From Actinomycetota bacterium (GTDB lineage Bacteria > Actinomycetota > Actinomycetes > Mycobacteriales > Micromonosporaceae), in the NCBI GenBank assembly GCA_005885555.1, contig VAWN01000032.1, positions 1-64,000 on the forward strand: a DNA stretch of 64,000 nt, written 5' to 3'. The translations under genes were made by a program, and so were the position numbers. Shown here one piece after another: positions 21,166-36,979 of the stretch; positions within the stretch are counted from its first letter, which is position 1; each line of letters begins with the position of its first letter. The notes beneath the pieces were generated by a model that had not been told where the DNA came from, made no database searches, and saw only the letters and a list, made by a program, of their open reading frames with translations.

Positions 21166-21381
21166 ATGGCACTGGTGTTCCTGGGGAAGGACCCCAACAG
21201 CAAGCAGGGCGGCTCACCGACGCTGTGGTACGACGAGGACCGCGACACCTATCTGTTCCAGTCCTGGAAGGTCACCGATTCTGAACGGCTGACTCAACTC
21301 GATATCCCCGATCATGAATCAGTGATTGAGTTCCCGAGCCGGATGCTCAGGTTCCTGCCGGGGATGAAGAGTGATGGCTGA
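21166..21381 (+). CDS. Small protein preceding DUF6879 gene
   Basis: A 71-residue soluble protein (MALVFLGKDPNSKQGG start) with a GGAGG ribosome site about 6 bases before ATG 21166. It overlaps the DUF6879 gene by 8 bases, a coupled arrangement common in actinomycetes beside XRE/DUF5753 regulators. Codon usage here is less G+C-biased than in flanking housekeeping genes. Function unknown. Confidence 0.78.
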   Translation: MALVFLGKDPNSKQGGSPTLWYDEDRDTYLFQSWKVTDSERLTQLDIPDHESVIEFPSRMLRFLPGMKSDG

Positions 21382-21913
21382 GCTGGCGCTGACGGAGTGG
21401 GTGGATCAGTCGATCGAGGACATGCTGCGCGCCTGCGAGCGGTCGGCGGTGCATCTGGAGATGCGTGATGGCTACATGCGCAGCGACCCGGATTTCGCCG
21501 CATGGCGCGACGGGCAGCGTTGGGATCCGGCGGACCGGGAGTCCTGGTGGCACCCCTGGTATCAGGCGACATCCGACGTGACGAGCCGGGGTGTCGAGAT
21601 CCGGCGCGCACGAATCGTGTCCGAGCCGCTCAGTGAGTACGTTCGATATGAATACGACTGCACCTTCATGAACATCATCGGTGGCGAGAAGGTGCGTTGG
21701 CTGCCACGCCGCCGAGCCACGGACCTGGCCCTTCCGGGCAACGACTTCTGGCTTTTCGATGGAAGGATCGTGCTGGTCAACCACTTCACCGGCGAGGGCG
21801 AATCGGCCGCACATGAGACTACGACCGATCTGGCCGTGGTGAAGCTTTGCGCCACGGCGTTCGAGGCGGTGTGGGAGCGGGCCATCCCGCACGAAGACTA
21901 CCGTCCGACGTGA
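21374..21913 (+). CDS. DUF6879 family protein
   Basis: A 179-residue protein with the family pattern of an N-terminal helical part (MLRACERSAVHLEMRDGYM) and a core containing VEIRRARIVSEPLSEYVRYEY and DFWLFDGRIVLVNHFTGEGE. Relatives usually lie next to XRE/DUF5753 regulators, as here. ATG 21374 overlaps the upstream small gene. Its role is not known. Confidence 0.83.
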   Translation: MAELALTEWVDQSIEDMLRACERSAVHLEMRDGYMRSDPDFAAWRDGQRWDPADRESWWHPWYQATSDVTSRGVEIRRARIVSEPLSEYVRYEYDCTFMNIIGGEKVRWLPRRRATDLALPGNDFWLFDGRIVLVNHFTGEGESAAHETTTDLAVVKLCATAFEAVWERAIPHEDYRPT

Positions 21914-21920
21914 TCTGCTG

Positions 21921-22779
21921 GTGTCCTCTCCGTCGTCCAGCGTCCGGTCGGGCCGCCAGAACCTGGCAACCCGCCTCCGCGAACTACGGATCGACGCCGG
22001 ACTGACGGCTCGCGAACTCGGTCGGCTGATGGGTCGGCACGGCTCCAAGGTATCCCGGATCGAGCACGGCCGTTCCGTCCCGTCAGCCGCCGATATCCAG
22101 GCCTGGTGTAGGCACTGCGGCGTGCCAGGCCAAACCGCCGATCTGATCGCCGCGCTCCGGGCCGTCGAGGGGACGTACGTCGAATGGCGTCGCATCGAAC
22201 GGTCCGGACTGCGGGTGTCGAATGAGGCTGAGGCGCCGCTCTGGGATCGGACTCGGCGATTCCGCATCTATCTACTCGAACTTCATGATCCCCGGGCCGG
22301 TGCAGACGGAAGGTTACGTGCGTGCGATTCTGCGGCTGGTGACGGCGCAGCGGCACATTCCCGATGACATCGAGGCGGCGGTACGGGTCCGGATCTGCCG
22401 GCAACACGTCATCTGCGAGGGGGACCACCGGTTCTCCATAGTGCTGGAGGAGAGTGTGCTACGCAGCCCGATCGGTGGTGCCGACATCATGGCCGGCCAG
22501 CTCGGCTACCTTTTGGAGGCAAGTGCGCTGCCCTCGGTGTCACTGGGCATCATCCCGCTCGGGACCGATCGGTCGAAGTCTATGTGGCCGGTCGAAGCCT
22601 TCTGGATGTTCGACGAGGCACAGGTAGCCGTTGAACTGGTGTCTGCCTACCTGACGATCACCCAGCCGCATGAGATTGCCATGTATATGGACGTCTTTGC
22701 GGGGCTTGCGGCGCAGGCGGTCTACGGGCCACCGGCACGGAAGCTGATCGCCGATGCCATCGCGGCTCTCGACGAGTAG
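21921..22779 (+). pseudogene. XRE-family regulator with DUF5753 domain, frameshifted
   Basis: The first frame (21921 to about 22266) encodes an N-terminal helix-turn-helix (LRELRIDAGLTARELGRLMG, RIEHGRSVPSAADI) and the linker YVEWRRIERSGL...RTRRFRIY. The DUF5753 part continues in another frame (SNFMIPGPVQTEGYVRAILR to the stop at 22779). The break is a tandem TCTATCTA at 22267-22274; removing one TCTA restores a single 284-codon frame of normal family length. So a 4-bp duplication inactivated it, unless slippage or sequencing error is involved. Follows the DUF6879 gene by 7 bases. Confidence 0.85.
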
Positions 22780-22826: not shown

Positions 22827-22962
22827 TAGCGTCGCGGTCATGTCCCGAGCGGCGTTCTGGTACAGGCGTCGTCAGGTGACCGGGGCGCGCTGGCGCCGCG
22901 CGCCCTTCCACGTCGACGGAGGTGTTCCGCATGCAGCATCCCGCCTGGTGCGACCGAGCTGA
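22827..22962 (+). other. Promoter and leaderless small ORF overlapping the next gene
   Basis: TAGCGT at 22827-22832 lies 7 bases before ATG 22840, with TTGAGC 18 bases upstream. The ORF encodes 40 residues, starts MSRAAFWYRRRQVTG, is very Arg-rich, and ends at 22962, 31 bases past the start of the next gene (22931). It could be a leader ORF coupling translation, or a true small protein. Confidence 0.45.
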
Positions 22963-23221
22963 ATGCACCGCGTCGGAAGGCACCGGGTACCACTGGAGCC
23001 GGCGGGTGGCGCTCGACCCGGAGCTGGGTACGGACGTCAGCGCCACTCTGCAGATCTGCCAGGGTGCGCGCAGCGCCGCGGTACTGGTCGACCTCACCGC
23101 GCACCTGCCGGGTCTGGATCCTGCCGACGACGGCGAGGAGTGCACGCTGTTGATGGGTGGCGAGCGGGCGGTCGCGCTCGGGCGGATGCTTCTCGCGGTC
23201 GGCCACGCGGCGACCGGGTAA
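22931..23221 (+). CDS. Small cysteine-containing actinobacterial protein
   Basis: A 96-residue protein starting MQHPAWCDRAECTASEGTGYHWSR, with three cysteines in the first half (two in CDRAEC, one in ICQGARS). ATG 22931 follows a GGAGG ribosome site by 8 bases. The C-terminal half (GLDPADDGEECTLLMGGERAV) resembles small proteins found widely in actinomycetes. No function known. It lies just upstream of the ThrRS-like leader. Confidence 0.7.
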   Translation: MQHPAWCDRAECTASEGTGYHWSRRVALDPELGTDVSATLQICQGARSAAVLVDLTAHLPGLDPADDGEECTLLMGGERAVALGRMLLAVGHAATG

Positions 23222-23253: not shown

Positions 23254-23357
23254 TAGCCTGGTGGGCATGAGGCATGACGCGCGGACGACGCCGCCGGGAG
23301 ACCCCGGCGACGTTTCGCGCTGACGCAAACGAGTCCCGGGCGATCCGCCCGGGACTC
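23254..23357 (+). promoter_or_regulatory. Putative threonine attenuator
   Basis: TAGCCT (23254-23259) lies 7 bases before ATG 23267, which opens an 18-codon leader ORF containing adjacent Thr codons ACG ACG (codons 7-8). An inner hairpin CGCCGGG-AGAC-CCCGGCG (23292-23309) overlaps the end of the leader, and a perfect 12-bp hairpin (GAGTCCCGGGCG-ATC-CGCCCGGGACTC, 23331-23357) follows the leader stop by 7 bases. It lies 41 bases before the ThrRS-like start. This is the layout of ribosome-controlled transcription attenuation. Confidence 0.6.
23267..23323 (+). CDS. Leader peptide of the ThrRS-like gene
   Basis: Encodes MRHDARTTPPGDPGDVSR then TGA at 23321-23323. Its two adjacent Thr codons would stall a ribosome short of charged threonyl-tRNA, and the leaderless start would begin translation at once. 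Too short to judge by composition; it is supported by the promoter spacing and the hairpins after it. Confidence 0.55.
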   Translation: MRHDARTTPPGDPGDVSR

Positions 23358-23398
23358 AACGGTTTCCGGCGGTCGCCCCTGTCCGTCAGGAGACCATC

Positions 23399-24571
23399 AT
23401 GATTGACCATCGCCAGCTCGGCCGGGAGTTGGACCTCTTCGACTCCGATCCCCTTGTCGGTGCGGGACTTCCGCTCTGGCTGCCGTACGGCGCCGCCGCC
23501 CGGCATGCGGTCGAGGAACACCTGCGCGGGGCGGAGCGCCGGGCGGGGTACCGGCACGTCTACTCGCCGCCGTTGGGTAGGCGGGAACTGTACGAGCGCT
23601 CCGGACACTGGGCGCACTTCGCCGACGACATGTTCGCGCCGATCCGTGACGGCGGCGAGGAACTGGTACTGCGACCGAGCCTGTGCCCGCACCACGCCCT
23701 CGTGTACCGGTCGCGCGGCCGCTCCTACCGCGAGCTGCCGCTGCGGATCGCCGAACTCGGTGGCATGTACCGTGCCGAGCGCTCCGGTGTGCTCGGCGGC
23801 CTGCACCGGGTACGGGCGATCTCGCTGAACGACGCGCACATCTTCTGCGCACCCGACCAGTTGGGCGGCGAGATCAAGGCGGTGCTGGACCTGATGTGGT
23901 CGGCGCACGCCGCCCTCGGCGTCCAGGTGGCCGGGATCCGGTTGTCGTTGCGTGGCCCGGGGAAGGAGTATGCAGGCGTTCCGGGCGACTGGGAGCGGGC
24001 GGAGGCGGTACTGCGGGACGCGCTCGGCGATCTGTCCTATGTGGAGGGACGCGGCGAGGCGGCCTTCTACGGGCCGAAGGTCGACGTGCAGATCGTCGAC
24101 CCGGCCGGGCGGGAGTCGACCCTCGCCACCGTGCAGGTCGACTTCCACCAGCCGGCCCGGTTCGAACTGTCCTATGTGGACTCAGACGGGCAGCGGCGGC
24201 GGCCGGTCATGGTGCACCGCAGTCTCGTGGGCAGTATGGAGCGGCTGTTCGGGCACCTGATCGAGGTGCACGCCGGTGCGTTTCCGGCGTGGTATGCCCC
24301 GGTGCAGGTCGCCGTCCTCCCGGTCGGGGCCGACGATGTGGCGGCCCGGTTCGCGGCGGCGGTCGAGGCGGCCGGGCTGCGGGTCGAGCTGCACGCGGAA
24401 GGCTCGCTCGGGGCACGGGTACGCGACGCGCGGAAGGTACCGTTCGTTGCCGTCATCGGTGCGCGTGAGGCGGCGGCCGATGCGGTGTCGGTCCGGCCGC
24501 GCGGCGGCGAACCCGAGGAGTTGCCGTTCGCGGCGGCGGTCGAGCGCATCCGCAGCGCCGCGCAGCCGTAG
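23399..24571 (+). CDS. Truncated threonyl-tRNA synthetase-like protein
   Basis: A 390-residue class II synthetase core with anticodon-binding domain, lacking the TGS and editing domains of normal ThrRS (about 640-690 residues). Motif 2 region MYRAERSGVLGGLHRVRAI, and all three zinc ligands are kept: Cys in RPSLCPHH, His in NDAHIFC, His in PVMVHRSL; motif 3 GSMERLFGHLIE, then the C-terminal domain from AGAFPAWYAPVQVAVLPVG. ATG 23399 follows AGGAG by 7 bases. It should charge tRNA-Thr but without proofreading; it may be a second, stress- or inhibitor-resistant copy, or serve a biosynthetic role. Confidence 0.88.
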   Translation: MIDHRQLGRELDLFDSDPLVGAGLPLWLPYGAAARHAVEEHLRGAERRAGYRHVYSPPLGRRELYERSGHWAHFADDMFAPIRDGGEELVLRPSLCPHHALVYRSRGRSYRELPLRIAELGGMYRAERSGVLGGLHRVRAISLNDAHIFCAPDQLGGEIKAVLDLMWSAHAALGVQVAGIRLSLRGPGKEYAGVPGDWERAEAVLRDALGDLSYVEGRGEAAFYGPKVDVQIVDPAGRESTLATVQVDFHQPARFELSYVDSDGQRRRPVMVHRSLVGSMERLFGHLIEVHAGAFPAWYAPVQVAVLPVGADDVAARFAAAVEAAGLRVELHAEGSLGARVRDARKVPFVAVIGAREAAADAVSVRPRGGEPEELPFAAAVERIRSAAQP

Positions 24572-24630: not shown

Positions 24631-25437
24631 TCAGCGGTACGCGCGGCGCCGGAAGGTCAGCATGCCGGTGACCGAGAACACCGCCGAGGAGGCGACCAGT
24701 ACCACGACGCAGATCCACGGTGCGATGTGCGGGACGTCCGGCACCATGGCCGCCCGTACGCCTTCGGCACAGTACGTCAGCGGATTGAGCGCCGTGATGA
24801 CTTTGAACCAGGGCAGCGAGTCCAGCGTCGGCCACGGGTACTGGGTGGCGCCGGTGAACATGAGCGGAGTCAGGATGAGCCCGAACATGATGCTGATTTT
24901 CGCGGGGGTGATGAGTGTGCCCAGCGTGATCCCGATACCGGCACCGACCCAGGCACCGAGCAGAAGCACCACAATCAGCAGGGGGATCCCTTCCGGCCGC
25001 CAGGGTGCGGTACCCAGCACGAGCCAGCCGATCGGGTACATGATGGCGGCGGCGAACAGGCCACGCATGGTCGCGATGACGAGCTTCTCGACCGTGACCC
25101 AGGTGGTCGGCAGCGGAGCCAGCAGCCGGTCCTCGATCTCCTTGGTCCAGCCGAACTCCATCACCAGCGGGAAGGCGACACTCTGCAGCGCGGTCAGGAA
25201 CGCGGCCAGGGCGATGATGCCGGGCAGCAGCAGATGCCCGTAGGACGCGCTCACGAAACCCTGCCGCGCCAACACCTTGGCGAAGATGAACAGCATGAAC
25301 AGCGGCGTCAGCGCGACCTGGATGAGCAGTACCCACAGCTCCTTGCCGGTGACGAAGACGTCCCGCCAGAGGATCGCGAGGAACGCCTTGCGCGCGCTCG
25401 ATCCGGTGCTGCGCAAGGGAAGGATGAGGTCCGTCAT
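24631..25437 (-). CDS. ABC-2 type exporter permease
   Basis: A 268-residue integral membrane protein with six hydrophobic segments (e.g. LFMLFIFAKVLA, LLLPGIIALAAFLTALQSVAF, ISIMFGLILTPLMF, WICVVVLVASSAVFSV), the ABC-2 permease pattern used for drug or lipid export. ATG 25437 overlaps the ATPase stop (ATGA), so it is coupled. Third gene of a marR-ATPase-permease operon. Confidence 0.9.
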   Translation of the reverse strand: MTDLILPLRSTGSSARKAFLAILWRDVFVTGKELWVLLIQVALTPLFMLFIFAKVLARQGFVSASYGHLLLPGIIALAAFLTALQSVAFPLVMEFGWTKEIEDRLLAPLPTTWVTVEKLVIATMRGLFAAAIMYPIGWLVLGTAPWRPEGIPLLIVVLLLGAWVGAGIGITLGTLITPAKISIMFGLILTPLMFTGATQYPWPTLDSLPWFKVITALNPLTYCAEGVRAAMVPDVPHIAPWICVVVLVASSAVFSVTGMLTFRRRAYR

Positions 25438-26537
25438 CGCAGGCCCCTTCCGGTCAGCTCGATGAAGACATCTTCGAGGCTCGGCTGTCCAATGTGGACG
25501 TCGGTGAGTTCGGCCGAGCGCGTGGCGAGCAAAGACACCACCGGAGCGAGCATCGTCGCGGGCTCCACGGTGAGGTAGAGCCGCAGGCGGACCGGGCCGG
25601 CGGCTCCCGGTACCATCGTCGCGACCGCGGAAGGACGGGCCGCACCGGCCCCCGGGCCGCCCCCGCCGAAGCCCGGAAACCCACCCGGAAAGCCGTTGCC
25701 GGGGCCGAAGGCCGGCATCGCCGCGGCCACCCGTTCGGCCTTGTCCACGCCGTCGGCCGCAACCAGAGCGGCGATCAGCGCATCCGCGCCGTCGCCCGGC
25801 GCGGGCGTGACGGTGAGTTCGAGCACCGACTGTCCGGACAGTCGCTTGATGAGGTTGGCCGGGCTGTCCAACGCGAGCAGCTTGCCGTGGTCGATGATGC
25901 CGACCCGGTCGGTGAGTGCGGCGGCCTCGTCCATGTCGTGTGTGGTGAGCAGAATCGTCACGCCGCGCTCGCGCATCTCCCGGATGCGGTCCCAGACGAA
26001 CAGCCGGGCCTGCGGGTCGAGGCCGGTGGTGGGTTCGTCGAGAAACAACACCTGTGGTTCGTGGATGAGTGCGCGGGCGATCATCAGGCGTTGCGCCATG
26101 CCACCGGAGTACCAGTCCACCTTGACGTCGGCCTGGTCCTCCAGGCCGAACTGCTTGAGCAGGGTGGCCGCGCGCTCGTTGCGCTCGCCGCGGCCGACGC
26201 CGTGGTATGCCGCGTGGAACGTGAGGTTCTGCCGCGGGGTGAGGGAGCGGTCGAGGTTGCTTCGCTGTGGTACCACGGCCAGCCGCGCCCGAGCCGCGAC
26301 CGGATTGCGCAGCACGTCGACGCCCGCCAGCATCGCGCGCCCGCTGGTGGCTTCGATGCGGGTGGTGAGTATGCCGACGGTGGTGGTCTTTCCGGCACCG
26401 TTGGGACCGAGCAACCCGAATACTTCACCCTCGCGGATCGCGAAGGTCAGTCCGTCGACGGCGTTGACATCCCGTTTCGGGTAACGCTTGACCAGTTCGA
26501 TGACCTCGACGGCGGTCCTGCCGTCTGCGTCAGCCAT
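25434..26537 (-). CDS. ABC-2 type exporter ATP-binding protein
   Basis: A 367-residue DrrA/NatA-like ATPase: Walker A GPNGAGKTTT, signature YSGGMAQRL, Walker B QVLFLDEPTTGLD, and H-loop TTHDMDEA. After the ATPase domain (to ~235) is a C-terminal extension holding an odd Gly/Phe/Pro-rich stretch (FGPGNGFPGGFPGFGGGG, about residues 280-300) before the final LTDVHIGQPSLEDVFIELTG. Starts 4 bases after the MarR stop. Export of a drug-like compound is suggested by MarR control. Confidence 0.92.
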   Translation of the reverse strand: MADADGRTAVEVIELVKRYPKRDVNAVDGLTFAIREGEVFGLLGPNGAGKTTTVGILTTRIEATSGRAMLAGVDVLRNPVAARARLAVVPQRSNLDRSLTPRQNLTFHAAYHGVGRGERNERAATLLKQFGLEDQADVKVDWYSGGMAQRLMIARALIHEPQVLFLDEPTTGLDPQARLFVWDRIREMRERGVTILLTTHDMDEAAALTDRVGIIDHGKLLALDSPANLIKRLSGQSVLELTVTPAPGDGADALIAALVAADGVDKAERVAAAMPAFGPGNGFPGGFPGFGGGGPGAGAARPSAVATMVPGAAGPVRLRLYLTVEPATMLAPVVSLLATRSAELTDVHIGQPSLEDVFIELTGRGLR

Positions 26538-26541
26538 CTGC

Positions 26542-27030
26542 TCACTCCTTCTCGTAGTTGTTGACGATCAGGTCGATGAGGAACTCGCGGACGATCTTCT
26601 CCTGGGCCGGGTCGCATTCGGCCGTGGTGGGCCGGAAGACTTCCCGGGCGTCGCGGCCGATCGCGTGGATGCGCTCCTCGCCGGCCTCGGTGACGACGAG
26701 CCAGACCACCCGGCGGTCGGACTCGTCGCGCTCGCGGCGCACGTATCCGGCCTTCTCCAGCGTGTCGACGATGCCGGTGAGGGTGGCCGGCGCCAGCCAC
26801 ACGCGGCGGGCGAGCTCCGCGTGCGTGGCCCGGCCGGGTGTGCCCTTGTCGATGCCGCGTCCCTGGCCCCAGCCGAGAACGGTGAGGACCGCGGCACCAC
26901 TGGAGGAGAGCCCGTGCTGGCGACCCATGACCCGACCGAAGCGCTGGCTCGTCACATGGCCGGCAAGCGCGACCAGCCGCATGAGCGGGCTTTCCGCCAG
27001 GCTCGCGCGTAATCCTGCTTCATCGTCCAC
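26542..27030 (-). CDS. MarR family repressor
   Basis: A 162-residue MarR-type winged-helix regulator (LARRVWLAPATLTGIVDTLEKAG recognition region, VRRERDESDRRVVWLVVTEAG wing). GTG 27030 is chosen because TAACGT (minus strand, 27038-27043) ends 7 bases before it; the frame is open further to 27066 but that would overlap the promoter. It heads the exporter operon and likely represses it and itself by binding the palindrome at 27059-27080. A ligand is not predictable. Confidence 0.9.
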   Translation of the reverse strand: MDDEAGLRASLAESPLMRLVALAGHVTSQRFGRVMGRQHGLSSSGAAVLTVLGWGQGRGIDKGTPGRATHAELARRVWLAPATLTGIVDTLEKAGYVRRERDESDRRVVWLVVTEAGEERIHAIGRDAREVFRPTTAECDPAQEKIVREFLIDLIVNNYEKE

Positions 27031-27058
27031 GGCGGGGACGTTAGCATCCTGATAGTTA

Positions 27059-27080
27059 GGTACCAAATGAATTTTGTACC
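27059..27080. promoter_or_regulatory. Probable MarR operator
   Basis: Inverted repeat GGTACCAAA-TGAA-TTTTGTACC, 9-bp arms with one mismatch, A/T-rich in a 72% G+C genome. It covers the -35 positions of both divergent promoters (minus -10 at 27038-27043, plus -10 TACGCT at 27083-27088), so one bound dimer could block both genes. Confidence 0.65.
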
Positions 27081-36445: not shown

Positions 36446-36979
36446 CGCCGGATCGAGCTCCGTGACGATCGGAGCGGTGAACAACAGCCGCTCCCCGGGC
36501 ACCGCACGCGCTTCCTCGACGTACTTGTCGCCATCGAGCCGGTGCAGCTGCAGGGTCAGCGGCTTCGGCTCAACGAGCAGGTACCGGGGGATCCCGGCCA
36601 CGGCATAGTGGTGCATCTTGAGGATCCGGTCGTGCCCGGCGTTGCTCGGCGAGGTGATCTCGCAGACCAGCGCAACAACCCGCGCGTCGACAACCAGGGT
36701 GTCCTGTTCAATCGGCCGGGTGATGACAAGGTCGGGGATCGGGATTCGACCGGGCCGGAGCCGAAGGTTGACCGCGAGGTAAATGTCGAGGCCGGCAGCG
36801 ACAGCGGCCGGGTGCAGCGCGTTCCGAAGCGCAACGGACAGAACCTGATGCCGAATTGTCGGGGCAGGGCTCACCACGAGGCTCCCGTCGAAGAGCTCGA
36901 CGCGGTCGTTGGTTTGGCCGAGCGCAAGGTAGTCCTCCTCCGTCCAGGGGAAGACATGCGCGAACGCCTCGGTTGTCAT
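36434..36979 (-). CDS. Uma2 family nuclease-like protein
   Basis: A 181-residue Uma2 (DUF820) protein, restriction-endonuclease-like fold: RVELFDGSLVVSPAPTIRHQVLS, IPIPDLVITRP, VVALVCEITSPSNAGHDRILK, and YAVAGIPRYLLVEP. The PD...(E)xT residues fit a nuclease active site, though function is unproven for the family. Codon usage is less G+C-biased than neighbours, a sign of transfer. It follows the carboxylase beta gene by 20 bases on the same strand. Confidence 0.87.
   Translation of the reverse strand: MTTEAFAHVFPWTEEDYLALGQTNDRVELFDGSLVVSPAPTIRHQVLSVALRNALHPAAVAAGLDIYLAVNLRLRPGRIPIPDLVITRPIEQDTLVVDARVVALVCEITSPSNAGHDRILKMHHYAVAGIPRYLLVEPKPLTLQLHRLDGDKYVEEARAVPGERLLFTAPIVTELDPASLG

Follow-up and report, generated by a model that had tools for sequence, protein, structure and literature searches.

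How soil actinomycetes may pass a threonine signal from a short leader to the synthetase gene behind it is the question raised by this locus. Attenuators of high-GC actinomycetes often have no recognisable terminator, and their switching mode has stayed open. For this leader, comparative sequence offers a specific answer: an anti-Shine-Dalgarno strand that would pair either with the attenuator hairpin or with the ribosome-binding site of the controlled gene, an editing-less back-up threonyl-tRNA synthetase (ThrRS2). The preferred reading, to which we assign a probability of roughly two in three, is that the thrL leader of this auxiliary gene couples two devices: a leaderless ribosome-mediated attenuator that responds to threonine, and a gate on the Shine-Dalgarno sequence.

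Organization of the leader

The window, meaning the whole 64,000-nt stretch of DNA that was analysed, contains the following elements.

23254 to 23259, + strand: -10 box TAGCCT, with a 7-nt spacing from which transcription would begin at the leader ATG or beside it (sequence)
23267 to 23323, + strand: leader ORF (thrL) of 18 codons with its ATG at 23267, encoding MRHDARTTPPGDPGDVSR and a stop (sequence; kept in 80/80 ThrRS2 relatives, the best 80 of 430)
23285 to 23290, + strand: regulatory codons ACG ACG (Thr-Thr); three in relatives (sequence)
23293 to 23308, + strand: inner hairpin H1 (regions 1:2), GCCGGG AGAC CCCGGC, GCCGGGAGACCCCGGC (fold; alignment A1)
23321 to 23323, + strand: thrL stop codon, 7 nt before the stem of hairpin T (sequence)
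23331 to 23357, + strand: hairpin T (regions 3:4), a perfect 12-bp stem (23331-23342 with 23346-23357) and a 3-nt loop (fold, sequence)
23338 to 23345, + strand: segment A, GGGCGATC, the top of the T 5' arm plus the loop, complementary to B
23361 to 23395, + strand: hairpin B:C, GGTTTCCGGCGG (23361-23372) with CCGTCAGGAGACC (23383-23395), over the Shine-Dalgarno sequence (fold; pairing kept in relatives)
23371 to 23378, + strand: segment B, GGTCGCCC, which pairs with A (8 bp) or sits in the hairpin hiding the Shine-Dalgarno sequence
23388 to 23392, + strand: Shine-Dalgarno sequence AGGAG of thrS2 (sequence)
23399 to 24571, + strand: ThrRS2, 390 aa, catalytic core plus anticodon domain (TIGR00418, 406 bits; Pfam)

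The preliminary description had pointed to the box, the leader ORF with its tandem threonine codons, the inner hairpin and the 12-bp stem 7 nt past the stop, and a reading of the sequence, with folding for the inner hairpin, found each of them in place. It overlooked the hairpin that sequesters the Shine-Dalgarno sequence and the covarying pairing of that hairpin with the top of T. From the end of T to the ThrRS2 ATG there are 41 nt in the window. The 167-nt leader piece folds at -91.1 kcal/mol, against -68.2 +/- 4.3 kcal/mol for shuffled sequences (z -5.34, 0/200), and no Rfam family, T-box included, matched at the gathering threshold anywhere in the window. The third threonine codon of the relatives is replaced by CCG (Pro) here, giving a TTPP peptide that also contains Pro-Pro-Gly, and the window is a divergent member of the group.

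The synthetase gene and its surroundings

The adjoining gene, previously described as ThrRS-like, encodes a true threonyl-tRNA synthetase core with the Pfam domains tRNA-synt_2b and HGTP_anticodon only; the Pfam search found neither a TGS nor an editing domain in it. A second, full-length housekeeping ThrRS is present in the same genome and is 43% identical to ThrRS2 over the shared part, and the region upstream of this housekeeping thrS carries no comparable leader. Near the active site, the proteins of the window and its 80 relatives (L001-L080) have SGVLGGL for the housekeeping SGVVHGL (His to Gly in 80/81) and LND for QDD (81/81); the metal ligands Cys/His/His are retained at their positions. 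From these sequences, an altered inhibitor response is possible. Obafluorin-type resistance via Gly463 was considered and found unsupported, the glycine of FYGPK being retained.

Directly upstream lies a small ORF (22922-23221; 99 aa, MFRMQHPAWCDRAECT...) with no Pfam or NCBIfam match, which adjoins a DUF5753 regulator (22222-22779) and a DUF6879 gene (21371-21913). On the 3' side of ThrRS2, a convergent DrrAB-like ABC transporter pair (24631-26537, - strand) is followed by a MarR-type regulator (26542-27066).

Distribution and conservation in actinomycetes

ThrRS2 relatives were scanned with one genome per species, yielding 430, of which the best 80 were kept. The preliminary description had proposed conservation in related genomes as a check, and the element is strongly conserved: in all 80 loci, a TANNNT-like box lies 6-8 nt upstream of the start codon of a short ORF whose product includes TTTP. 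The host genera include Micromonospora, Actinoplanes, Streptomyces, Kitasatospora, Allokutzneria, Amycolatopsis, Nocardia, Streptosporangium, and others. TTTP is coded ACG ACG ACG CCG in 62 of the 80. With the window added, a -10-like box precedes the leader start in 81/81 loci, at a spacing of 6, 7 and 8 nt in 26, 54 and 1 of them (one box, at L066, is the weaker CACCAT), and the thrL of S. lividans has been mapped as leaderless. As expected of a ribosome-mediated attenuator, a leader ORF rich in codons for the regulated amino acid stands before the matching synthetase gene. This recurrence of the layout in 80 relatives is more decisive than the shuffle test.

Further relatives found by protein in whole genomes had the leader in 8/8 cases. 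An RNA model of the leader detected the element in 55 of 297 genomes of the class, one per genome and nearly always before ThrRS2. One match (L085, genome G214) lies at a contig end, and weak matches in G234, G151 and G133, where no ThrRS was seen nearby, were taken as chance. L105 gave no leader in the scripted search, the protein match there beginning deep within a long N-terminal extension. In genome G221 (contig C55, L141/L147, leader 36789-36895), the element precedes the only ThrRS of the genome, a full-length, TGS-containing enzyme.

A WblC/WhiB7-like box, GAAAWY, counted when at least 5 of 6 positions agreed at the expected distance, was observed in 74/119 ThrRS2 promoters, roughly 31-34 nt on the 5' side of the -10 box, compared with a background rate of 13/714 places; the window promoter has no match to it. 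S. coelicolor thrS2 is listed among the WblC-activated genes of the antibiotic-response regulon (PMC7157823).

Predicted pairings of hairpin T, the anti-Shine-Dalgarno strand and the ribosome-binding site

In most relatives the thrS2 Shine-Dalgarno sequence sits in hairpin B:C (typically GGTCACTCGC / GCGAGGAGACC), and the B strand is also complementary to the top of hairpin T, segment A (typically GGCGAGTG / CACTCGCC). In the window, A:B overlaps the Shine-Dalgarno hairpin just in part. When A-B partners were exchanged among 38 dereplicated loci, the swapped pairings were worse than the native ones in 5000/5000 permutations. In a structure-free alignment of 123 distinct sequences, A:B was 88.4% paired, versus 37-50% for slid versions; in a second alignment of 88 sequences, from which the least regular loci were left out, the values were 95.3% and 38-54%. 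In these 88 sequences, changes on both sides occur in 7 of 8 A:B pairs (40 cells), and none of 500 shuffles reached any of five measures.

A tree-aware null was made by re-dealing substitutions along the tree. Against it, the covariation of the A:B helix was 155.5 versus 0.1 +/- 26.6 (0/400; 1 of 432,400 null helices), and A:B is the best covarying helix of the alignment; the signal belongs to the whole helix, no single pair being individually significant under this null (best E 0.59). B:C reached 85.4% pairing, and 7 of its 9 pairs show changes on both sides; against the tree null its signal was weaker, with 82/400 on the covariation score and 16/400 on the pairing excess. Particular lineages illustrate the same pattern. 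The S. anulatus group has altered all three segments in concert (A, B and C being GCAAGTG / CACTTGC / GCAAGGAG); L114 has a quite different loop (GCAC) with a matching B, and so does L141 (GGGAGCG / CGCTCCC), which is in neither alignment. By comparative sequence only, then, the Shine-Dalgarno sequence is sequestered by a pairing that the alternative would exclude, because B:C and A:B share B. The sequestering hairpin and the covarying A:B point to translational control, additionally to or instead of control of termination.

Proposed mechanism and alternative readings

Because B lies past T and is transcribed after it, A:B cannot affect termination at T. Its effect must fall on RNA that has read through T, and the simplest target there is the accessibility of the Shine-Dalgarno sequence. 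A:B thus fits control of ThrRS2 translation. With B shared and A:B drawing on bases of the T stem, the natural states would be {T, B:C}, with the Shine-Dalgarno sequence hidden, and {2:3, A:B}, with it free. When Thr-tRNA is ample, the ribosome would complete thrL, T (3:4) would form and hold A, and B would pair with the Shine-Dalgarno segment C; transcripts would end at T, or read-through RNA would be poorly translated. Under a shortage of Thr-tRNA, the ribosome would stall on the threonine codons and cover region 1, and region 2 (CCCGGCGC), freed by the stall, would pair with GCCCCGGG of the T 5' arm, adjoining A. With 2:3 formed and T incomplete, A would be free for B, the Shine-Dalgarno sequence would be released and ThrRS2 would be made. 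The layout, its conservation and the covarying A:B and B:C complementarity are observed in the sequences, whereas we infer the stalling, the identity of the ON state and the relative weight of termination and translational control.

Hairpin T may relay such a codon-specific stall, its top (A) imitating the Shine-Dalgarno segment and thereby capturing strand B, the anti-Shine-Dalgarno strand. That the leader is a relay riboregulator of this kind, with a single stall in a leaderless ORF governing whether the transcript is completed and also whether translation of the back-up synthetase starts, is a proposal on which we see the odds as even. Mutually exclusive pairings 1:2, 2:3 and 3:4 are predicted, 1:2 and 3:4 in folds, and a pairing of the region-2/T-5'-arm type appears in the fold when the T 3' arm is blocked. 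Nearest-neighbour folding did not select A:B even with this arm blocked; folds containing it were a median 7 kcal/mol worse than the best alternative lacking it, since 2:3 is a further competitor of A:B. Energy models thus give the proposed ON state no support so far, and this state must be kinetic or a pseudoknot unless the assignment is wrong. Two features of the window also weigh against the preferred reading, its two rather than three threonine codons and the partial overlap of A:B with the Shine-Dalgarno hairpin.

Purely classical transcription attenuation would account for the 1:2/2:3/3:4 geometry, with T serving as an intrinsic terminator poor in U, 2:3 as antiterminator and the segments after T only shaping the ribosome-binding site. 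It would also agree with the U-poor structured 3' ends reported in Streptomyces (PMC8269248) and with the U-rich tails after T at a few loci (L001, L020, L120). However, no U-tract follows T in the window, where AACGGTTT comes after the stem, or in most relatives; termination at the S. lividans thrL has been called unclear (PMC8079986); and the A:B covariation is given no role, B being made after the termination decision. We consider this reading unlikely. The interpretation in the preliminary description is supported in part: a leaderless threonine-sensing leader before a ThrRS gene is well supported by conservation and by the mapped S. lividans thrL, and a plain-terminator role of the stem is not supported.

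A pseudoknot of A:B with the lower part of T is possible. The short T-to-B spacing in most loci would suit an H-type pseudoknot on the lower half of T, whose stem could remain paired during A:B. That this is simply a stable, threonine-independent fold, such as an RNA stability or pausing element, is nevertheless quite improbable, as the conserved B:C also uses B, suggesting competition, and the conserved threonine codons link the element to threonine.

As for the leader ORF, the block CGCCGG...CCCGG (H1) is invariant in alignment A1. Judged from the alignments, the conserved entity is RNA rather than peptide, because loci differ in the codon frame of CCCGGC, all three frames being represented (98, 32 and 6 loci), and the C-terminal half of the peptide varies by family (PESVPAR versus PGIPGAPH). 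Arrest of the ribosome by the leader peptide itself, with threonine supply incidental, could draw on the near invariance of TTTPESVPAR in Streptomyces and on the Pro-Pro-Gly of the window, but is disfavoured to the point of being very improbable by the family-specific tail and by invariant nucleotides that occur in three frames.

Comparison with known systems

The preferred reading, the threonine attenuator joined to a Shine-Dalgarno gate, shares its first part with systems already on record. A leaderless thrL upstream of thrS was listed in S. lividans in 2021 (SLIV_19412/19410; PMC8079986). It has a leaderless threonine leader peptide (MKRVRPFLETTPGFVPAR) before a ThrRS gene, as is predicted for the window, and, as there, a single following hairpin without a U-tract; the window peptide differs from it in having TTPP, and PMC8079986 gives peptide and hairpin only, with no distribution and no A:B/B:C switch. 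Mycobacterial leaderless polycysteine attenuators (Canestrari et al. 2020, as cited in PMC9031893) are similar in that, as that source relates, downstream genes are governed by a short leaderless ORF in which one codon is repeated in a row. They differ in responding to cysteine, and no conserved terminator-like hairpin was found for the cys leaders (PMC1262725). The novelty of a leaderless leader ORF is not supported, such ORFs being already known for thrL and for these cysteine attenuators, and a leaderless threonine attenuator in itself is known.

A 2005 survey of actinobacterial RNA regulation described attenuators before trpS and leuS, and threonine operons without conserved RNA structures (PMC1262725). 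The Streptomyces trpS, leuS and trp attenuators resemble thrL as classical attenuators upstream of aminoacyl-tRNA synthetases, whereas the predicted ones carry poly-U tracts (PMC1262725). The link of the attenuator hairpin to the anti-Shine-Dalgarno strand through A:B and B:C is new, no description of it having been found in the literature searched. In ermC-type translation attenuators, ribosome stalling on a leader likewise exposes a hidden Shine-Dalgarno sequence; these are triggered by antibiotics and have no pairing between a terminator loop and an anti-Shine-Dalgarno strand. The auxiliary TrpRS1, cited in PMC9437257, also has a classical attenuator upstream of an auxiliary synthetase gene, as thrL stands before ThrRS2.
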